A stretch of DNA of 64,000 nucleotides, taken from Kiritimatiellia bacterium (GTDB lineage Bacteria; Verrucomicrobiota; Kiritimatiellia; PWTM01). The notes beneath the pieces are model-generated. The model was not told where the DNA came from and ran no database searches. It saw only the letters and a list, made by a program, of their open reading frames with translations. Position numbers and translations under genes: made by a program. The DNA lies in NCBI GenBank assembly GCA_026417735.1, contig JAOACR010000009.1, forward strand, positions 62,001-126,000. Reading direction: 5' to 3'. The number at the start of each line of letters is the position of its first letter. The stretch's first letter is position 1. Below are positions 7,587 to 15,904 of this stretch, one piece after another.

Positions 7587-8339
7587 TCACAAGCCGACCC
7601 GTGGCGGCAGTCCCGCCGTCGGATCGGCGAGCTGTCGGGCGCGCAGCTCCGCGAACGCCGCGCGGCAGTCCTCTACCCGGCCGGTGGCCAGCGGCAGCTC
7701 GGTCCAACCCCGCCCGATCTCCTCGGGGTGATGCGCATCGCTGGTGCGGATCATCGCCCACCGCCCGCGCAGGCCGGCCGGATCCCGGGCACAGTCGTAG
7801 CGGTCGCTGACCTCGACGGCGTCGAAGGGTAGCTCCGGCATCCGCCCCAGTTGCGAGAGCACGCTCATGGCGGGACGGTCCACATGGGAGGGAACACACA
7901 GTCCGCCCGCGGCGCAAATCGCTTCACAGAGCTCGGTGAGCGGCCAGTCGGTCGCCGCGCCGAGCCAGACCGGCACCAGGGTCTCGATTTCCCCCTCTTC
8001 ATTCACCACAGGCTGGTCCACCTCGGTCAGACGGCTCACCGGTACGCTCGCCAAGCGGGCGGTGGCCTGCCGGCCAAACTCGACCGTGGCCAACGGATCA
8101 TCGAACAACGCCAGCACGTGGAGCTCCTCCACCGTCGTGACCTCGACGCCGGTCAGCACCGCGAGCCCGCGCGCGGCGGCCGCCCGGGCACTCGCCGGGG
8201 CGTTCAACCCCGCGTTGTGGTCCACCACCGCAATCATCTGCAGACCCGCGACCGCGGCGTGGTACGCGATCTCGCGGGGTGACATGCGAAGATCCCCGCA
8301 GGGGGACAGGCACGAGTGAATGTGCAGATCCGCTCTCAC
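7587..8339 (-). CDS. PHP-domain metal-dependent phosphoesterase
   Basis: The GTG start at 8339 overlaps the preceding stop (GTGA); 250 residues. The metal-binding PHP motifs are all present: HxH at residues 6-8 (ADLHIHSCLSPCGD), then DHNAGLN, GVEVTTVEELHVLALF, CVPSHVDRP and the terminal TSDAHH. These predict a TIM-like barrel with a multinuclear metal site, as in PHP phosphoesterases such as histidinol-phosphate phosphatase and the 5'-3' RNA/DNA or AMP phosphoesterases. The substrate cannot be read from sequence. It is the fifth gene of the rex-led block, and PHP genes are known neighbours of [FeFe]-hydrogenase operons in several anaerobes. A role in removing a nucleotide signal made or sensed by the neighbouring CBS/HATPase protein is speculation. 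Confidence 0.85.
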   Translation of the reverse strand: MRADLHIHSCLSPCGDLRMSPREIAYHAAVAGLQMIAVVDHNAGLNAPASARAAAARGLAVLTGVEVTTVEELHVLALFDDPLATVEFGRQATARLASVPVSRLTEVDQPVVNEEGEIETLVPVWLGAATDWPLTELCEAICAAGGLCVPSHVDRPAMSVLSQLGRMPELPFDAVEVSDRYDCARDPAGLRGRWAMIRTSDAHHPEEIGRGWTELPLATGRVEDCRAAFAELRARQLADPTAGLPPRVGL

Positions 8340-8683
8340 CCGGCACGCCTGGTGAGCGCAGCGTGCACGCGCCACGACAGCTCGTACTGGCTCAAGGGCG
8401 AGCGAGCGACCGCCACCGACTGCGCACGCGCCGCCTCGATGGTGTCTGGCGGCACCGGGCGGCCGTGGGCGATGAGCACCGCCCGGATTCCGACCGCCGC
8501 CGCCACGCCGATCACGGCACGGTGCGTCTGAACGGTGATCCAGACGCTGTCCGCAGGCGCATGGCCCAGCACGTCACTGAGCAGGTCGGAGGTGTACCCG
8601 GCGACCACCGGCGCGTGGGGCGCACCCTCCACCAGAACTTCAAGACTCCCCAGCGCCGTCCAGAGGTCCAACACCGTGCTCAT
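8336..8683 (-). CDS. DRTGG-like small protein (second copy)
   Basis: A 115-residue protein starting at the ATG at 8683, which overlaps the stop of the CBS/HATPase gene. It has the compact alpha/beta pattern of the DRTGG domain: VLVEGAPHAPVVAGYTSDLLSDVLGHAPADSVWITVQTHRAVIGVAAAVGIRAVLIAHGRPVPPDTIEAA, parallel to the other DRTGG protein at 9650-9988 (VLAGVVATDLMSDLL...VLTALASDQAVRTADLVGAAAVIVVNGKPLP). The signature tetrapeptide itself is absent. DRTGG domains occur next to CBS domains in some pyrophosphatases and as stand-alone proteins beside hydrogenase genes; they have no proven catalytic activity. It probably forms dimers or binds a ligand together with its neighbours. Confidence 0.7.
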   Translation of the reverse strand: MSTVLDLWTALGSLEVLVEGAPHAPVVAGYTSDLLSDVLGHAPADSVWITVQTHRAVIGVAAAVGIRAVLIAHGRPVPPDTIEAARAQSVAVARSPLSQYELSWRVHAALTRRAG

Positions 8684-9624
8684 CGGGACGCTTCCGGCGG
8701 CATCGTCACAGCGGAGACAGGCCAACGGATCAGCGCGCGCACGCGGGTGCCCTCGCCAACCGCGGAGCGAATCGCAAACTCGTCCGCGACTCGCCGGATG
8801 TTGCCCAACCCCATGCCGGCGCCGAAGCCCAGTGACCGAACCCAGTCGTTCGCGGTCGAAAAACCATCCTGCATCGCTAGCTCGACGTCCGGGATGCCCG
8901 GTCCGTCGTCCGTCGCCGTGATTTCCGCAACACCGTGCTCGATGCGGGCTTCTATCGCACCGCCGTTGGAGTGCACGACGAGGTTCATCTCCATTTCATA
9001 CGCTGCGATCGCCGCACGGCGAACATGCTCCGGCGGTAATCCGCGCGCGGTGAGCGCCTTTTTGATTTCATGCGCGGCGCGGCCGGCGTTTTCGAAGTCG
9101 TATCGTCGCACCGCAAACCGCAGCTGTTCAACGGGTACCGCGCACGGTGCGGGCGCGGGCATTTTCGCTTCCAGCCTCGCATACTCTTTGTACAGCTCAA
9201 TCAGCAGCGAGGCGCTGATGTCGCGGCTGGTCAAAATCCCACAGAGCCGACCGTCCCGGTCCAACACGGGGAAACGACCGAAGCGGTACTTTTCGAAGTA
9301 GGAGGCGCCGAACGACAGCGGCATGTCATCCTCGAGCACGACGACCCGCTCGGTCATGTGCGCGCCAACCGGCTCGTCGAGCTGGCCGTGCTCCATCACG
9401 GTGATCACGTCATCCATGCTCACGATGCCGTAGAGTCGATCGCGCTCCGCCACCGGCAGGCCGGTGATGCCGTGACTCTTCATCAGCGCTCGGGCATAGC
9501 GCATCGAATCGGTACGGCGAACGGTGATCAGCTCGCGCGTCATCACATCCCGCACTTTCAGCCGGAACAACAGGTCCTGCAGAATCAGCGGAACCTGATC
9601 CGCCGGAATGGGCAGCACGGCCAT
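8680..9624 (-). CDS. CBS-pair protein with RsbW/anti-sigma-type ATPase domain
   Basis: A 314-residue soluble protein. Residues of about 20-150 hold two CBS motifs (VRDVMTRELITVRRTDSMRYARALM, GITGLPVAERDRLYGIVSMDDV; then GRFPVLDRDGRLCGILTSRDI), which usually bind adenine nucleotides. Residues of about 190-305 are a GHKL ATPase of the RsbW/anti-sigma type: N box AAYEMEMNLVVHSNGG, G1 box TATDDGPGIPD, G2 box LGFGAGMGLGNI. There is no histidine phosphoacceptor domain. The combination suggests a switch in which nucleotide status controls a serine kinase or partner-switching ATPase. No STAS or sigma-factor gene is in view. The start at 9624 has GGAG upstream and is 25 nt past the previous stop. It lies between two DRTGG-type genes. 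Confidence 0.85.
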   Translation of the reverse strand: MAVLPIPADQVPLILQDLLFRLKVRDVMTRELITVRRTDSMRYARALMKSHGITGLPVAERDRLYGIVSMDDVITVMEHGQLDEPVGAHMTERVVVLEDDMPLSFGASYFEKYRFGRFPVLDRDGRLCGILTSRDISASLLIELYKEYARLEAKMPAPAPCAVPVEQLRFAVRRYDFENAGRAAHEIKKALTARGLPPEHVRRAAIAAYEMEMNLVVHSNGGAIEARIEHGVAEITATDDGPGIPDVELAMQDGFSTANDWVRSLGFGAGMGLGNIRRVADEFAIRSAVGEGTRVRALIRWPVSAVTMPPEASR

Positions 9625-9649
9625 CGGCCGCTCCGCGGCAACCGCGGCG

Positions 9650-9988
9650 TCAGCCGCCTGTCGCGCGGGCGAGCACCGCGCAGGCCTCAAACATCGGGCG
9701 CCGGCATCGCAACAGGGGCATGCCGAGCTCGCGCGCCAGCTCCACCATACCGGCCGGCAGCGGTTTGCCGTTGACCACGATCACCGCCGCGGCTCCCACC
9801 AGATCCGCGGTTCTCACGGCCTGATCTGATGCCAGTGCGGTCAGCACCAGATGGCCGGTGCGATCCGCGGTGAGCAGATCGCTCATCAGATCGGTCGCCA
9901 CGACGCCCGCCAGCACCCGTGCGCGCGCCGCATCCGGTACGTGGATCTCTTCCGCCCCCAGCGCCCGCCGCGCATCGTCCAGCGTCAT
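9650..9988 (-). CDS. DRTGG-domain protein
   Basis: A 112-residue protein that starts at the ATG at 9988, overlapping the rex stop by 4 bp. It fits the DRTGG fold: an N-terminal helix (TLDDARRALGAEEIHV), then VLAGVVATDLMSDLLTADRTGHLVLTALASDQAVRTADLVGAAAVIVVNGKPLPAGMVELARELGMPLLRCRRPMFEACAVL. The literal ADRTGH sequence at about residues 41-46 is close to the name-giving motif. The biochemical role is unproven. Coupling to rex and proximity to hydrogenase genes place it in redox control or hydrogenase-linked signalling, which is inference. Confidence 0.8.
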   Translation of the reverse strand: MTLDDARRALGAEEIHVPDAARARVLAGVVATDLMSDLLTADRTGHLVLTALASDQAVRTADLVGAAAVIVVNGKPLPAGMVELARELGMPLLRCRRPMFEACAVLARATGG

Positions 9989-10626
9989 GGCCGCCCCCGC
10001 TCCAGCCCCTGCTCGGCGAACCGCAGCAGACAGAACAGATTCTCCAACTCCAGCGCGATGTTGATATTCTGCACGACCACGTTGTTCTGGCTCTTCAACA
10101 GAATCGGCGCGAAGTTCAGGATCCCCCGGATCCCCGCCGCGATCAGCTGTTCGGCCACCTGCGACGCCACCGTCTCCGGCACCGCGAGAATCGCCACCTG
10201 GATTTTTTCGCTCTTCACCACATACGGCATCTCGTTGATGTCGCGGATCGGGATCGGAGCGTTCGGATCAATCTTCGAGGGATCCACGTCGAAGCCGGCC
10301 ACCACCCGGATGCGCTCGCGCGCAAACCCCCGATATCGCATCAGCGCGGTCCCGATCTTTCCGCAGCCAACCACGATCACCCGCTGAACCTCGTCCACCC
10401 CCAGAATCCGGTTGAGCTGCGCGATCAGGTCATCCACCTGATACCCGGCCCTCTTCTTCCCCGTCAGCCCGAAGACAGAGAAGTCCTTGCGCACCAAGGC
10501 CGGGGATACACCGACCGCGTCCGCCAAATTGTCGGAAAACACCTTCACGAAACCCAGCGAACGGAGCTTCTCCAGTACGTTCTTGTACTTGGTCAGGCGA
10601 ACAACAACTTCTTTTGTCGCACTCAT
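9985..10626 (-). CDS. rex: Redox-sensing transcriptional repressor Rex
   Basis: A 213-residue protein, usual Rex length. Residues 1-80 are the winged helix (RLTKYKNVLEKLRSLGFVKV, NLADAVGVSPALVRKDFSVFG with the family VRKD-FS.FG signature). Residues of about 84-200 form the NAD(H)-binding Rossmann domain (VIVVGCGKIGTAL, VAGFDVDPSKI), followed by the domain-swapped C-terminal helix (NINIALELENLFCLLRF). Rex leaves its operator when NADH binds, so target genes are expressed when NADH/NAD+ is high. It is transcribed away from the hydrogenase operon, with a well-formed Rex operator between the two, so both autoregulation and hydrogenase control are expected. It is the first gene of a block with the DRTGG, CBS/HATPase and PHP genes. 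Confidence 0.97.
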   Translation of the reverse strand: MSATKEVVVRLTKYKNVLEKLRSLGFVKVFSDNLADAVGVSPALVRKDFSVFGLTGKKRAGYQVDDLIAQLNRILGVDEVQRVIVVGCGKIGTALMRYRGFARERIRVVAGFDVDPSKIDPNAPIPIRDINEMPYVVKSEKIQVAILAVPETVASQVAEQLIAAGIRGILNFAPILLKSQNNVVVQNINIALELENLFCLLRFAEQGLERGRP

Positions 10627-10657
10627 GCAGCGTTGTGCTCCGGTTATTTAGTACAAC

Positions 10658-10685
10658 ATTCTAGCCAATACGACCGCCCATGCAA
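10658..10685 (-). promoter_or_regulatory. Promoter of the rex operon
   Basis: On the minus strand TTGCAT (10685-10680) and TAGAAT (10663-10658) are separated by 16 nt. The predicted leader is about 25 nt and includes CCGGAG before the rex ATG. The Rex operator lies just upstream of the -35 hexamer, suited to autoregulation. Confidence 0.65.
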
Positions 10686-10691
10686 GTTCAA

Positions 10692-10709
10692 TTGTGAAGA
10701 TTTTCACAT
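10692..10709. promoter_or_regulatory. Rex operator
   Basis: TTGTGAAGATTTTCACAT fits the Rex-box form TTGTGAA-N4-TTCACAA with one mismatch in the last base. It lies between the outward-facing rex and hydC promoters, about 6 nt from the rex -35 and about 40 nt upstream of the hyd -35. The match and its place beside rex make this a strong prediction; a partial second half-site (TTCACA at 10711-10716) follows it. Confidence 0.88.
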
Positions 10710-10749
10710 ATTCACAGTGCGACGCCCGCAATTACGCGCCACATCCTTC

Positions 10750-10777
10750 TTGAATGCAAGGCTGTTTCTGCTATCAT
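10750..10777 (+). promoter_or_regulatory. Promoter of the hydCEDBA operon
   Basis: TTGAAT at 10750-10755 and TATCAT at 10772-10777 with a 16-nt spacer. It points at hydC with a predicted leader of about 45 nt. The Rex operator is upstream of it. Confidence 0.65.
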
Positions 10778-10829
10778 GAGACGGCATTGGTTTCAGCCGG
10801 TAGGCTAAAACCTAGCGAGACATTAGACC

Positions 10830-11333
10830 ATGGACACGCACGAAGAACTGACGGCGCTGCCGGATCGTTCGATCGAACTGCCGGAAGATCTGTCCCGGTA
10901 CATCGAGGAATGGAAGACCAGACCGGGCAACCTGATTATGGTGCTGCACCGGGTGCAGGAGCACTACGGGTACGTGCCGCGCGATGTCGCGTTTGAAGTG
11001 GCTGCCCGCCTCGATGTGCCCCTGGCGAAAATCTACGGCGTGGTGACCTTCTACCACTTCTTCAAGCTGCGCAAGCCCGGACGTCATCAGATCGCGGTGT
11101 GCATGGGCACGGCCTGCTACCTCAAGGGGGGCGAGGACCTGATCAAGGAGCTCGAAACCATCCTCGGCATCGGTCTGAACCAGACCACCGCGGATGGCGA
11201 GTTTTCGATTGAGGCTGTCCGGTGCATCGGTTGCTGCGGCCTGGCGCCGGTGCTGACGGTGGACGGACAGGTCTACGGCCGGCTGACGAAAGACCAGCTG
11301 GCCGACATTGTCGCCAAGCATCGAGGTGGATGA
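10830..11333 (+). CDS. hydC: NADH-linked [FeFe] hydrogenase, thioredoxin-like [2Fe-2S] subunit HydC
   Basis: A 167-residue protein of the NuoE/24-kDa family. Four cysteines for one [2Fe-2S] cluster are visible as C91-x4-C96 (CMGTAC) and C132-x3-C136 (CIGCC). The helical N-terminus (PGNLIMVLHRVQEHYGYVP, KIYGVVTFYHFFKL) is typical of the family. In electron-bifurcating hydrogenases HydC works with HydB in electron exchange with NAD(H). It is the first gene of the hyd operon, with its own promoter and a Rex operator upstream. Confidence 0.95.
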   Translation: MDTHEELTALPDRSIELPEDLSRYIEEWKTRPGNLIMVLHRVQEHYGYVPRDVAFEVAARLDVPLAKIYGVVTFYHFFKLRKPGRHQIAVCMGTACYLKGGEDLIKELETILGIGLNQTTADGEFSIEAVRCIGCCGLAPVLTVDGQVYGRLTKDQLADIVAKHRGG

Positions 11334-11935
11334 TGCATGCGACGCTGGCCGACTGGATGTTAGAACCGGTCTCGAACGCGATCGAGGCCGGCGCTCGGGC
11401 GATTCGGGTTCATCTGAGCAAGCGGGGCTCCTGGATCGAAGCAGAGGTTGCCGATGACGGCCCCGGACTCGATCGAGCCCACTGCGACGCGCTGTTTGAC
11501 CCTTTTGCAGGCGGTGACCCGCGCAAGCATCCCGCTCGCCGGCCCCATCTGGGCCTGCCACTGCTGCACCAGATTGTGCAACAGGCCGGCGGGGAGCTGG
11601 CGGTGGAGTCCATGCCCGGTCAGGGCACGCTCGTGCGCTTGGCGTTGGATACACGCCACCCCGACGCGCCGCCGGCCGGTGATTGGGCCGCGGCCATCGC
11701 AACGTCACTGGCGATGGCCGCCGAGCGGGGCATCGCGATGCAATGGCTGCACGAGGACAACGGCCGGCTTTGCGTGGCCGACAACCTCGACCTGCTCGGG
11801 GCGCCGGCGCCGATCCGGGCGGACCGGCTGCAACGGCTCCGGCACGAGCTGGCGGAAAACATGCCACCGCCGGCCAGGGCGCCGGCCGCGCTTGCGGTTG
11901 CCGGCCTTGAGGAGAACAGATCATGGGCAAACTGA
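11330..11935 (+). CDS. HATPase-domain protein of the hydrogenase operon (HydE-like of hydCEDBA, not the radical-SAM maturase)
   Basis: A 201-residue protein; the ATG at 11330 overlaps the hydC stop (ATGA), and an adjacent ATG at 11333 with GAGG 6 nt ahead is an equal alternative. Residues of about 8-105 are a GHKL ATPase: N box LEPVSNAIEAGARAI, G1 box ADDGPGLDRA, G2 region HPARRPHLGLPLLHQIVQQAGGELAVES. The C-terminal 90 residues are helical and unassigned. Comparable genes sit between hydC and hydD in the hydCEDBA arrangement of some acetogens and are described there only as histidine-kinase-like; no function is established. There is no phosphoacceptor domain or transmembrane segment. Its end overlaps the start of hydD by 13 bp. 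Confidence 0.8.
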   Translation: MMHATLADWMLEPVSNAIEAGARAIRVHLSKRGSWIEAEVADDGPGLDRAHCDALFDPFAGGDPRKHPARRPHLGLPLLHQIVQQAGGELAVESMPGQGTLVRLALDTRHPDAPPAGDWAAAIATSLAMAAERGIAMQWLHEDNGRLCVADNLDLLGAPAPIRADRLQRLRHELAENMPPPARAPAALAVAGLEENRSWAN

Positions 11936-12336
11936 CACTGGAAGAACTTCGCGCACTGCGGGAACGGGCACAGCAGACGATCGCGCGCCGCCAAAGCGCG
12001 GAGGGCGCCACCGGTGAAATTGTGGTCGGCATGGGCACCTGCGGCATCGCAGCCGGCGCGCGGGAAGCACTCGACGCGTTCATCGAGGCGCTGAATCGGC
12101 ACCAGCGCGGCGACGTGGTCGTGCGCCAGACCGGCTGCATGGGCCTGTGCTACTCCGAACCGACGGTCGAGGTCCGCATCGCCGGCATGCCGCCGACCAT
12201 CTACGGTCGTGTCACCGCCGAGGTCGCCCGCCGGATCGTCGAGGAGCACATCCTCGCCGGCCGTCTGGTGGACGACCACGTGTATGATCGGCCGGCGCCG
12301 GATATCGCGCCGCACCTGCGCAGCTCCGGAAAGTGA
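11923..12336 (+). CDS. hydD: [2Fe-2S] thioredoxin-like ferredoxin HydD
   Basis: A 137-residue protein with a thioredoxin-like ferredoxin domain. Cluster cysteines are in GMGTCGIAAGAREALD and RQTGCMGLCYSEP (CxxxC). A helical N-terminus (LTLEELRALRERAQQTIARRQ) precedes the domain, as in HydD proteins of NADH-dependent hydrogenase operons. A strong GAGGAG ribosome-binding site precedes the ATG. It likely carries one electron between subunits or is an assembly partner; in purified bifurcating enzymes this subunit is not always present. Confidence 0.88.
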   Translation: MGKLTLEELRALRERAQQTIARRQSAEGATGEIVVGMGTCGIAAGAREALDAFIEALNRHQRGDVVVRQTGCMGLCYSEPTVEVRIAGMPPTIYGRVTAEVARRIVEEHILAGRLVDDHVYDRPAPDIAPHLRSSGK

Positions 12337-12344
12337 GTCCCGCC

Positions 12345-14123
12345 ATGGCGTACTCCCACTTTGTATTGGTGTGTGCGGGCACCGCCTGCGACTCCTGCCG
12401 CAGCCGTGAGATCTACAACCGCCTGAACGCTGCGGTCCGCACTCACGGCCTTGAGGGGCGGGTTCAGGTTGTCCGGACGGGTTGTTTTGGCTTCTGTGCA
12501 CAGGGGCCCGTCGTAAAAGTGCTGCCCGACGAATCGCTCTATGTGCAGGTCCGCCCGGAGGACGCTGACGAGATCGTCGCCGAGCACCTCGCGAAGGGGC
12601 GACCGGTGCAGCGCCTGCTGTACGGCGGCGCGCGGCCCGGTTCCTTCGCGGACATCCCCTTCTACCAGAAGCAGTTCCGAATCGTGCTGCGCAACTGCGG
12701 CATCATCGATCCCGAAAACATCGAGGAATACATCGCCCGCGAGGGCTACGAAGCGCTCGCGAAGGTGTTGACCTCGATGACGCCTGACGACGTGATCGCG
12801 GAGCTACGCACCTCCGGCCTGCGGGGGCGGGGCGGTGCCGGCTACCCGACTTGGAAGAAGTGGGTGTTTACAAAAAACGCGTCGGCGGACACCAAGTACG
12901 TCATCTGTAACGCCGACGAGGGCGACCCCGGCGCCTACATGGACCGCAGCACGCTCGAGGGTGACCCCCACTCCGTGCTCGAGGCCATGGCGATTGCGGG
13001 CTACGCGGTCGGCGCGCACCAGGGCTACATCTACATCCGCGCGGAATATCCGCTGGCGATCCACCGGCTCGAAATTGCGATCCGCCAGGCACGCGAGATG
13101 GGGCTGCTGGGCCGCGACATCCTGGGTACCGGGTTCGACTTCGACGTCGAACTGCGTCTTGGCGCCGGCGCATTCGTCTGCGGGGAGGAAACCGCGTTGA
13201 TCGCCTCGATCGAGGGCAAGCGCGGCATGCCGGTGCCCCGCCCACCCTATCCGGCGGTCCGCGGCCTGTGGGGGCGGCCGACCGTGATCAACAACGTCGA
13301 AACGTTCGCGAACATCCCGGTGATCATTCTGAAGGGCGGCGCGTGGTTTGCTTCGATCGGGACCGAAACGTCGAAAGGCACGAAGGTGTTCGCGCTGACC
13401 GGGAAGGTCAACAACTCGGGCCTCATCGAGGTGCCGATGGGCACGACGTTGCGCGAAATCATCTTCGACATCGGTGGCGGCATCAAGGGCGGGCGCCGTT
13501 TCAAGGCCGCGCAGACCGGCGGCCCCTCCGGCGGCGTGATCCCGGAGCAGTTCCTCGACACCCCGATCGATTACGAGTCGCTCGCGAAGCTCGGCTCGAT
13601 CATGGGCTCCGGTGGCCTGATTGTGATGGACGAAGACGATTGCATCGTGGACGTGAACAAGTTCTATCTCGAATTCACGGTGGACGAGTCCTGCGGCAAG
13701 TGCGCACCCTGCCGGATCGGTGGCCGCACGATGTTCAACTTGCTCACCGATATCACCGAGGGTCGCGCGACGGTCGCGCACATTGAGCAGATCCACACCG
13801 TCGCGCATGCGATGCAGAAGGCGTCGCTGTGCGGCCTCGGTCAGACCGCGCCCAACCCGGTGCTCTCGTCGTTGCGGTATTTTGGCGAAGAGTACCGGGT
13901 GCACATCAAGGACAAGCGCTGCCCCGCGGGGCGCTGCCGCGCGCTCGTCACCTACACGATTTTGCCGGACAAGTGCATCGGCTGCACGCTCTGCGCGCGG
14001 CGCTGTCCGGTCAACTGCATCAGCGGCGAGCGCCGCAAACCGCACGTGATTGACCTCACCCGCTGCATCAAGTGCGGGGAGTGCTTCGCCGCGTGCAAGT
14101 TCGGTGCGGTGCTTCGCACCTGA
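12345..14123 (+). CDS. hydB: NADH/flavin subunit of bifurcating [FeFe] hydrogenase, HydB
   Basis: A 592-residue NuoF-like subunit. In order: an N-terminal thioredoxin-like [2Fe-2S] domain (VCAGTACDSCRSREIYNRL, RTGCFGFCAQGP), the FMN/NAD-binding core (GLRGRGGAGYPTWKKW, CNADEGDPGAYMDRSTLEGDPH, GAGAFVCGEETALIASIEG), the SLBB region, a [4Fe-4S] NuoF motif (DESCGKCAPCRIGGRTMF), and a C-terminal pair of [4Fe-4S] ferredoxin clusters (CIGCTLCARRCPVNCI; CIKCGECFAACKFGAV). In the HydABC family this subunit holds the FMN that splits electrons between NAD+ and ferredoxin. The ATG at 12345 is chosen; a GTG at 12333 that overlaps the hydD stop would add four residues. Confidence 0.96.
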   Translation: MAYSHFVLVCAGTACDSCRSREIYNRLNAAVRTHGLEGRVQVVRTGCFGFCAQGPVVKVLPDESLYVQVRPEDADEIVAEHLAKGRPVQRLLYGGARPGSFADIPFYQKQFRIVLRNCGIIDPENIEEYIAREGYEALAKVLTSMTPDDVIAELRTSGLRGRGGAGYPTWKKWVFTKNASADTKYVICNADEGDPGAYMDRSTLEGDPHSVLEAMAIAGYAVGAHQGYIYIRAEYPLAIHRLEIAIRQAREMGLLGRDILGTGFDFDVELRLGAGAFVCGEETALIASIEGKRGMPVPRPPYPAVRGLWGRPTVINNVETFANIPVIILKGGAWFASIGTETSKGTKVFALTGKVNNSGLIEVPMGTTLREIIFDIGGGIKGGRRFKAAQTGGPSGGVIPEQFLDTPIDYESLAKLGSIMGSGGLIVMDEDDCIVDVNKFYLEFTVDESCGKCAPCRIGGRTMFNLLTDITEGRATVAHIEQIHTVAHAMQKASLCGLGQTAPNPVLSSLRYFGEEYRVHIKDKRCPAGRCRALVTYTILPDKCIGCTLCARRCPVNCISGERRKPHVIDLTRCIKCGECFAACKFGAVLRT

Positions 14124-14134
14124 AGGAGGCTCTC

Positions 14135-15904
14135 ATGACCACCGCCACCCCCCTCACAACCGTGAAGGCCGAAATCAACGGCATGGAGTGCGAGGTGCCC
14201 GAGGGCACCACGATCCTGCGCGCGGCCGAACAGATCGGCATCCGCGTGCCACGGCTCTGCTTCCATCCGGACCTGCCCGCATGGGCCGCCTGCGGCATTT
14301 GCGTCGTCAAGGTCGAAGGCTCGCCAAAGATGCTGCGCGCCTGCGCGACGCCGGTCGAAGACGGCATGAAGATCACTACGCACGATCCGGAAATCGTGCG
14401 GGTGCGCAAGTCGGTGCTGCAGTTGATTCTCTCAACCCATCCGAACGACTGCCTTCGGTGCCCCCGCAACGGCAATTGCGAGCTACAACGGCTGGCGGCG
14501 GACTTCGGGATCCGGGAGGTGCCGTTTGCGTCGCGCATCACCCGACTGCCCACCGACGACTCCACCCGCGCGGTGGTGCTGAACCCCGAAAAGTGCGTGA
14601 AATGCGGTCGGTGCGCGATCGTTTGCCAGCAGATGCAAAACGTCTGGGCGCTCGAGTTTGTCGGCCGCGGTGACTCGACGCGGCTGGCCCCCACCGGCGA
14701 TATCCAGCTGGCGGAGAGCCCCTGCATCCGCTGCGGCCAGTGCAGCGCGCACTGCCCGGTCGGCGCAATTTACGAGCACGACGAAACCGACCGCGTCTGG
14801 CGCGCGCTGCAAAACCCCGATCTCCACTGCGTGGTGCAGATCGCGCCGGCGGTCCGCGTCGCGATCGGCGAAGCGTTCGGCTACGAGCCGGGCACCGTGC
14901 TGACCGGCAAGACCTACGCCGCGCTGCGCCGGCTCGGCTTCCGGGCGGTGTTCGACACGAACTTTGGCGCGGACCTCACCATCATGGAGGAAGCCACGGA
15001 ATTCGTGCAGCGCTTCCTCCACGGCGCGGGGCCGCTGCCGCTGATCACCAGTTGCTGCCCCGCCTGGACCGACTACATGGAGAAGTACGCGCCGGACTTC
15101 ATCGACAACTTCTCCACCGCAAAATCCCCGCACGCGATGCTCGCCGCGATGGCAAAAACCTATTACGCGCAGGTGAAGGGGCTCGATCCGGCGAAGATCT
15201 ACATGGTCTCCGTGATGCCCTGCACCGCGAAGAAGTTCGAGATCATCCGTTCTCGCGAGATGTTCGACGGCGAGCGGCCCTACGTGAACGTCTCGATCAC
15301 CACACGCGAGCTGGCGCGCATGATCAAGGAGTGCGGCATCGACTTCGTCGAGCTGCCCGACGAAGAGGCCGACTCGATCCTCGGCTACTACACCGGCGCG
15401 GGCACGATCTTCGGCGCGACGGGCGGCGTGATGGAGGCGGCGCTGCGCACCGCGCACTACCTCATCACCAAGCGCGAGGCGCCCGACATCAACTTCCTGC
15501 CGCTGCGCGGCCTGGAGGGCGTAAAGGAGGCGACGTTCGAAATCGCTGGGCGGACGCTGCGCGTCGCTGCCGCGCATTGGATGAGCAACATCGAGACAGT
15601 GCTCGACCGCGTGCGCGAAAGCCGGCGACGCGGCGAGGAGCCGGCCTATCACTTCATCGAGGTGATGGCCTGCCGCGGCGGCTGCGTGGGCGGCGGTGGC
15701 CAGCCCTACGGCGCTGACGACGAGGTGCGCCGCCGGCGCGCGTCCGGCATCTACCAAGATGACGCGATGAGCCAGAAGCGGTGCTCACATCAGAACCCGT
15801 ACATTCAAAAGCTCTACGCGGAGTTCCTGGGCGCGCCGCTGAGCGCGCGGGCGCACGAGCTGCTTCACACTCACTATCATCGTCGGCCGGTTTACGCGCG
15901 CTGA
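14135..15904 (+). CDS. hydA: [FeFe] hydrogenase catalytic subunit HydA
   Basis: A 589-residue protein starting at an ATG preceded by AAGGAGG. N-terminal [2Fe-2S] domain (CFHPDLPAWAACGICVV...CATPV), a His-Cys3 [4Fe-4S] motif (HPNDCLRCPRNGNCELQ), two ferredoxin [4Fe-4S] motifs (CVKCGRCAIVCQ and CIRCGQCSAHCPVGAI), then the H-cluster domain with L1 TSCCPAW (C307), L2 MPCTAKKFE (C363) and L3 MACRGGCVGGGGQP (C513, C517), all intact, and the short C-terminal small-subunit-like tail. This is a group A, cytoplasmic, NADH-linked trimeric-type enzyme. With HydB and HydC it should make H2 from NADH plus reduced ferredoxin. The maturases HydE, HydF and HydG are not in the window, so they must be elsewhere for it to be active. 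Confidence 0.97.
   Translation: MTTATPLTTVKAEINGMECEVPEGTTILRAAEQIGIRVPRLCFHPDLPAWAACGICVVKVEGSPKMLRACATPVEDGMKITTHDPEIVRVRKSVLQLILSTHPNDCLRCPRNGNCELQRLAADFGIREVPFASRITRLPTDDSTRAVVLNPEKCVKCGRCAIVCQQMQNVWALEFVGRGDSTRLAPTGDIQLAESPCIRCGQCSAHCPVGAIYEHDETDRVWRALQNPDLHCVVQIAPAVRVAIGEAFGYEPGTVLTGKTYAALRRLGFRAVFDTNFGADLTIMEEATEFVQRFLHGAGPLPLITSCCPAWTDYMEKYAPDFIDNFSTAKSPHAMLAAMAKTYYAQVKGLDPAKIYMVSVMPCTAKKFEIIRSREMFDGERPYVNVSITTRELARMIKECGIDFVELPDEEADSILGYYTGAGTIFGATGGVMEAALRTAHYLITKREAPDINFLPLRGLEGVKEATFEIAGRTLRVAAAHWMSNIETVLDRVRESRRRGEEPAYHFIEVMACRGGCVGGGGQPYGADDEVRRRRASGIYQDDAMSQKRCSHQNPYIQKLYAEFLGAPLSARAHELLHTHYHRRPVYAR

Follow-up and report, generated by a model that had tools for sequence, protein, structure and literature searches.

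The window is the 64-kb stretch of DNA analysed here. Within it, rex (9985-10626, minus strand), identified by Pfam and NCBIfam profiles as the gene of a redox-sensing repressor, is divergent from a hydrogenase operon on the plus strand. The first operon gene, hydC (10830-11333), matched the profile of a NuoE/HoxE-like [2Fe-2S] subunit. It is followed by a gene for a HATPase-domain protein (11336-11935), also found in a number of relatives, by the gene of a small protein (11923-12336) with weak NCBIfam 2Fe-2S ferredoxin matches below the cut-off and no Pfam match, by hydB (12333-14123; NuoF-like flavoprotein subunit, profile match) and by hydA (open frame 14072-15904, true start probably at about 14135). 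HydA scored 778.1 bits against NF040763, the profile of NADH-dependent [FeFe] hydrogenase group A6 (cut-off 765). The HydABC Pfam domains PF02906, PF01512 and PF01257 (H-cluster large subunit and NuoE/NuoF-like partners) were present. By these profile matches, the operon divergent from rex is assigned to an NADH-dependent [FeFe] hydrogenase.

Downstream of rex on the minus strand lie genes for a DRTGG-domain-like protein (9650-9988; E 1.2e-4, under the Pfam cut-off; in some relatives), a CBS + HATPase protein (8680-9690; profile match), a second small protein (8336-8725) with a weak Mn-dependent inorganic diphosphatase match far below the cut-off, and a PHP-domain protein (7587-8375; profile match). 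These genes of 7587-9988 recur beside rex in some relatives. The rex/hydC region was searched for RNA families and terminators and none was found.

The genome (96.8% complete) yielded a single protein with a Rex DNA-binding domain, the product of this rex gene. It scored 39.8 bits against the N-terminal DNA-binding domain PF06971 (cut-off 27), 57.3 bits against the Rossmann domain PF02629 (cut-off 22.3) and 236 bits against the NCBIfam Rex equivalog NF003996 (cut-off 138). Its identity to the five best-matching genome records was 98%, 86%, 90%, 86% (Lentisphaerae) and 63% (Kiritimatiellae). The alignment to Thermotoga maritima Rex (5zz5/7wb3) was ungapped through residue 118. Arg48 and Lys49, which read the operator in T. 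maritima (PMC8836258), correspond to Arg46 and Lys47 here, which were invariant and nearly invariant, respectively, in 14 sequences (own included). By this alignment, the local Rex has the DNA-reading residues for a site such as that at 10692-10709. The NAD(H) site of T. maritima Rex includes Asn92, Ile93, Ala96, Tyr100, Asp115 and Lys120 (PMC8836258). Ile91, Ala94, Tyr98, Asp113 and Lys118 match here; the NAD-contact Asn92 is replaced by Lys90 and the wing Gly61 by Arg59, both nearly invariant in the 14 sequences. A response to NADH is expected by analogy with the Rex family.

The predicted operator and its occurrence in the genome

The predicted Rex operator, TTGTGAAGATTTTCACAT, occupies 10692-10709 between the two divergent genes and was assigned from the motif match, a genome scan and conservation of the box in relatives. 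It has a single mismatch to TTGTGAA-N4-TTCACAA, at an outer base. When the window was scanned with up to 3 mismatches, 10692-10709 was the sole match. Expected operator counts were calculated from a first-order model of the composition of the 64-kb window, and for at most 1 mismatch they came to 0.0013 per 64 kb. A scan of the 3.09 Mb genome for the same box gave two places with at most 1 mismatch (10692-10709 and C4:180136) against 0.065 expected, in keeping with an earlier, sequence-only reading that had placed a Rex operator here.

That reading had called the site near-perfect except for its last base. The 18-mer and its one deviation were confirmed; the deviation itself proved ordinary. 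The outermost base of 33 strong boxes in relatives, counted at both ends, was A 35 times and T 31 times. Since the two are about equally frequent there, the 'mismatched' last base is no real deviation and lies within the clade's normal range. The partial extra half-site noted beside the operator is also present, as TTCACAG at 10711-10717 (plus strand), and is probably incidental: it was absent from the sister species (98% identical Rex) and from four other aligned family members. Its role as a cooperative second site was dropped because these five did not keep it.

The genome places matching TTGTGAA-N4-TTCACAA that were inspected comprised the other 1-mismatch place, all seven 2-mismatch places and 4 of the 33 three-mismatch places. 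Five of the seven 2-mismatch places fall within a chosen open frame. The second 1-mismatch box, ATGTGAATCAATTCACAA at C4:180136-180153 (L001 1501-1518), is equal in quality to that at 10692-10709 and is flanked by a lipoprotein gene on one side and an SH3-like gene on the other. The sister species retains the left half alone (9/12); in the four further relatives that carry the gene, the best match reached 7-10 of 12 and was placed elsewhere.

The looser pattern WTGTKA-N6-TMACAW, with at most 1 mismatch, occurred at 10 places in the whole genome against 9.6 expected by chance; its reversed control pattern occurred at 8. When the 10 places were compared with the 5 in the sister species (neighbouring frames compared by eye), the rex/hydC box was the sole place recognised in both genomes. 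A wider Rex regulon in this genome was dropped, as the count was about that of chance and no other place was recognised as shared with the sister species. Weaker functional Rex sites may nevertheless be present, the own rex box of one relative (G002) being only 10/12. A further site at C3:211230-211247 (L011 1501-1518) has 1 mismatch to WTGTKA-N6-TMACAW, a quality expected about 10 times per genome by chance, and lies about 0.8 kb beyond an open frame that by eye resembles RnfD/NqrB. On the sequences compared, Rex in Kiritimatiellae and neighbouring lineages looks like a local rather than a global regulator.

The rex-hydC region in relatives

Searching with the Rex protein gave matches at E 0.001 or better in 52 of 77 genomes (own included), a few being weak. 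A search of 288 phylum genomes (own included) gave 45 matches at 1e-40 or better, with 15 of the 45 places lacking a listed locus. The 35 rex loci from the two Rex searches had an adjacent divergent hydC in 33 cases and no hydC in the flank covered in 2. Among 80 named-genome loci (the best 80 of 167 relatives), 48 were divergent, 13 had hydC after rex in the same direction and 19 had no hydC in the flank covered. Many of the 80 and of the 35 loci come from the same genomes; the 33 and 48 divergent regions, 23 of them identical between the sets, were merged to 58 distinct regions. The box counts exclude L048, which is truncated by a contig end, and L049-L057, the loci with a distant Rex. Twelve of the 13 same-direction loci were Omnitrophota records (among the best 80 of 167 relatives). 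In these (L105, L109, L110, L115-L119, L130, L132, L133 and L151), rex comes first, followed by hydC and hydB in the same direction.

WTGTKA-N6-TMACAW was found at 11/12 or better in 33 of the 58 divergent regions and at 12/12 in 16, with a K/M consensus partly derived from 20 of the loci later tested among them. Dinucleotide shuffles (50 rounds) gave a mean of 1.0 regions at 11/12 and 0.04 at 12/12, with maxima of 3 and 1. Other spacers (3-5 and 7-9) gave 2-7 boxes at 11/12 and 0-1 at 12/12 in the same 58 regions. A strong box was missing in 25. A de novo palindrome search was also run on 33 regions with all 4096 half-sites and 13 spacers, no sequence being assumed. ATGTTA-N6-TAACAT, a form of the Rex box, came top, with 15 of 33 regions when up to 2 mismatches were allowed. 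In shuffles (20 rounds), the count was 7-11 regions overall and 5-8 at the spacer of ATGTTA-N6-TAACAT. The TTGTGA and ATGTGA forms were found in 11 regions each, and an AT-rich palindrome, TTATAT-N12-ATATAA, in 13, above the shuffle maximum of 11. Because AT-rich palindromes also beat the shuffles and the TTGTGA form merely equals their maximum, the de novo test alone is not decisive.

In 21 of the 33 strong boxes, the centre preceded the rex start by 10-28 nt and was 107-277 nt away from hydC, so that control of rex appears to be the commonest arrangement. Nearly all strong boxes (31 of 33) were separated from the start of hydC by at least 100 nt.

Variants were seen in several groups. Three loci of family f30 (L065, L067 and L071) have a pair of boxes separated by 51 bp, at about -35 and -86 relative to rex, with scores of 9 to 11 of 12. 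In family f26, two aligned Rex sequences (L047 and L068) carry a one-residue insertion in the wing. Five rex-hydC regions of this family (L047, L068, L069, L070 and L072) are without a strong box and keep a TCACA half near the rex start; the operator is possibly changed there. A second, distant Rex-type gene (about 35% identity) occurs at nine loci in relatives (L049-L057), where a divergent hydC was not seen. At one of them, L050, a perfect TTGTGAAATGATTCACAA precedes the distant gene.

The palindrome at 10692-10709 could in principle have arisen by chance or belong to a different regulator. It is imperfect, and the equally good site at C4:180136 stands at genes without an evident redox link, as either origin would allow. 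A genome of this kind is expected to hold only 0.065 such sites, however, and this one adjoins the rex gene, recurs at the same place in 5 of the 7 rex-bearing family members and belongs to a type of box that is frequent in the rex-hydC region across the class. We consider chance or another regulator very improbable. The motif, the cognate rex gene and the conservation bear out the earlier assignment, and 10692-10709 is very probably a true Rex operator.

Predicted promoters and proposed regulation

Promoters were predicted with a home-made scoring scheme, and the best-scoring promoter per strand was picked without reference to the box. The predicted rex promoter (minus strand) consists of a -35 element TTGCAT at 10680-10685, with a CTTG-type hexamer at the same place in L029-L031, and a -10 element TAGAAT at 10658-10663, which would put the transcription start near 10651. 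For hydC (plus strand), TTGAAT at 10750-10755 is the predicted -35, identical in the sister species, and TATCAT at 10772-10777, with an extended TG, the predicted -10; transcription would start near 10784. Between the operator and the predicted -35 elements lie 6 bp on the rex side and 40 bp on the hydC side. For these predicted promoters, the layout described earlier, with the operator against the rex -35 and about 40 nt upstream of the hydC -35, was confirmed.

In five family members, the top promoter calls were unchanged when the extended -10 bonus was removed, and the predicted hydC promoter, with scores of 11.5-13.0, was ahead of the next distinct candidate (8.0 or less). The rex call was less clear, at 6.4 versus 6.0 in L032 (margin 0.4) and 8.5 versus 7.2 in L029 (margin 1.3). 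Outside the family, the distances obtained from promoter calls disagreed with one another, and no hydC claim rests on them. A candidate second conserved element, GGCRC, was found upstream of the hydC -35 in four genomes and is not kept in L032 and L033.

The distances between the box and the two promoters are nearly fixed in 5 of the 7 rex-bearing family members. In the locus under study (L028), L029, L030, L032 and L033, the box centre lies at -49, -49, -49, -49 and -50 from the predicted rex start and at -83, -83, -83, -84 and -81 from the predicted hydC start; the box of L030 (G002) is only 10/12. None of 400 shuffles approached this agreement, a comparison that does not test shared descent or a promoter-promoter constraint without Rex at hydC. 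The fixed spacing could reflect shared descent, or a two-promoter constraint independent of Rex at hydC. Leader length of hydC ranges from 45 to 86 nt in these members, and pairwise identity in the 36-bp spacer from the box to the hydC -35 is 11-47% (28-47% when a shift of up to 2 bp was allowed for the best fit). Given a fixed spacing despite varied leaders and a divergent spacer, indels seem to have been avoided without the sequence being kept. In G003 (L031), one half-site is left at the usual place, and boxes of 11/12 and 10/12 have their centres some 40 and 25 nt ahead of hydC, the 11/12 box on the predicted hydC start. In G005 (L035), the box is next to rex. No Rex match was found in two further family genomes, each 89% complete. 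As predicted here, the family geometry is unusual against the placement near rex that is commonest in relatives, and is conserved in the close family.

We propose that at low NADH, NAD+-bound Rex would occupy 10692-10709 and, from 6 bp ahead of the predicted rex -35, hinder RNA polymerase at the rex promoter. From the same site, whose centre is about 83 bp upstream of the predicted hydC start, Rex would also lower transcription of hydC-HATPase-2Fe2S-hydB-hydA. A rise in NADH would release Rex, rex and the NADH-dependent hydrogenase would be made, and NADH would be spent as H2. Simple occlusion would not explain repression of hydC, because a box at -83 misses the hydC core promoter; the effect might be exerted through the upstream contacts of the polymerase, or through coupling of the back-to-back promoters. 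The sequence-only reading had remarked that a site so placed would be unusual if the hyd promoter were simply repressed, and this remark holds. As a whole, this model of one operator serving autorepression of rex and repression of the hydC operon, with relief by NADH, is put at slightly better than even.

Its two parts differ in strength. Autoregulation, suggested earlier from the position of the site, is well supported by the placement of 21 of 33 strong boxes just before rex in relatives. It is the best-supported predicted role of the box, and we regard autorepression of rex by Rex as likely. For hydC, the fixed box-hydC spacing suggests an effect as well, and the prediction that hydC too is repressed by Rex is evenly balanced. 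Repression appears the likeliest single effect on hydC in view of the fixed spacing, the L031 box that falls on hydC, the loci with both genes in one direction and the known repressor role of Rex; its chances were lowered by Caldicellulosiruptor bescii, where the Hyd operon was not up in a rex deletion. NADH-responsive control of the hydrogenase, the other regulatory suggestion of the earlier reading, is plausible from the synteny, the fixed spacing in 5 of 7 members and the L031 box, with the distance of 31 of 33 strong boxes from hydC (at least 100 nt) counting against it.

The operator may instead serve rex alone, hydC being constitutive or otherwise controlled and the even spacing having another cause. 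This would suit the 21 strong boxes that lie close to rex and 107-277 nt from hydC, the position of the box at -83 outside the hydC core promoter, and the Hyd operon of C. bescii, which was not raised in the rex deletion (PMC6391272). Against it stands a distance from box to hydC promoter that varies by only 3 bp in five members despite leaders of 45-86 nt and a spacer at most 47% identical. The 11/12 box on the predicted hydC start of G003 and the Rex sites described upstream of hydrogenase operons in other bacteria also speak against it. We judge control of rex alone to be unlikely, while giving it real weight.

CRP-type class I activators function at -61.5, -72.5 and -82.5. A position of -83 falls on the same helical face, and the spacing is kept within 3 bp in five genomes, as would be expected if Rex repressed rex from -49 and activated hydC from -83 through a class I type of contact with RNA polymerase. 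The Hyd and Ech operons of C. bescii, both proposed to be Rex targets, were slightly down in the rex deletion, with significance marks not visible in the material available (PMC6391272), which points the same way. In the published accounts, as far as they were available, Rex is a repressor, however. An activator acting at low NADH would be better suited to an enzyme that consumes H2 than to one that makes it, the predicted hydC promoter already scores well alone (11.5-13.0 versus at most 8.0 for the next candidate), and the G003 box on the predicted hydC start is in a repressor position. Activation of hydC from this site is accordingly quite unlikely in our estimate, and opposite effects of one Rex dimer on one operator, with rex repressed from -49 and the hydrogenase operon activated from -83, would be a long shot. 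If true, this would be the first demonstrated Rex-activated promoter, a role suggested in the literature, with a spacing kept within about 3 bp across three genera of the family. Repression of both rex and hydC from the one operator is the reading we prefer.

Comparison with known Rex systems

In Caldithrix abyssi, a candidate Rex box, cTGTGAATCAATTCACAt, lies 38 bp upstream of the rex gene that leads an [FeFe] hydrogenase cluster (Cabys_3675-3679; PMC5317091). As here, rex is beside NAD-dependent [FeFe] hydrogenase genes, and repression at low NADH/NAD+ was proposed there. The arrangement differs in that rex of C. abyssi is first in one likely operon, whereas rex and hyd are divergent here and the box is upstream of both predicted promoters (PMC5317091).

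In C. bescii, gel shifts were done with Rex sites that precede the Hyd and Ech hydrogenase operons and rex itself; repression was proposed there, and the general Rex consensus is TTGTGAANNNNTTCACAA (PMC6391272). Sites before a hydrogenase operon and before rex are thus common to both organisms, those here being predicted. In the C. bescii rex deletion, the Hyd operon changed by log2 -0.13, -0.35 and -0.38 (significance marks not visible in the part of the source available; PMC6391272). Since the operon did not rise, these values do not fit simple repression of Hyd in that organism. C. bescii has 63 predicted sites (PMC6391272), whereas the rex/hyd region was the sole place found conserved in relatives here.

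The 18-bp operator type is identical to that of Staphylococcus aureus, where Rex sites lie within the promoter or a few bp to either side of it and are thought to exclude RNA polymerase (PMC2883068). The S. aureus targets differ, being fermentation and nitrate/nitrite genes, and no shared rex-hydrogenase operator was seen in the portion of that account available (PMC2883068). In Clostridium thermocellum, Rex sites were found by DAP-seq and motif scan, with the consensus TTGTTAANNNNTTAACAA, and Rex_2471 has a site upstream of an iron-only hydrogenase operon (a DAP-seq peak) and of rex, as is predicted here (PMC8457756). Rex_2471 is, however, a global regulator whose targets include glycolysis (PMC8457756).

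No paper on Rex in Kiritimatiellae was among the matches listed in the literature searches, which covered few subscription papers and named the group in one case only, without Rex. Rex at hydrogenase genes is already known elsewhere; the new elements are the lineage, a regulon that looks local and a conserved geometry relative to two promoters. Kiritimatiellae and neighbouring lineages are thereby added to the groups in which Rex is predicted to control NADH-dependent hydrogenases. The fixed geometry offers a clean test of whether one upstream repressor site governs two back-to-back promoters, and of an activator role of Rex.
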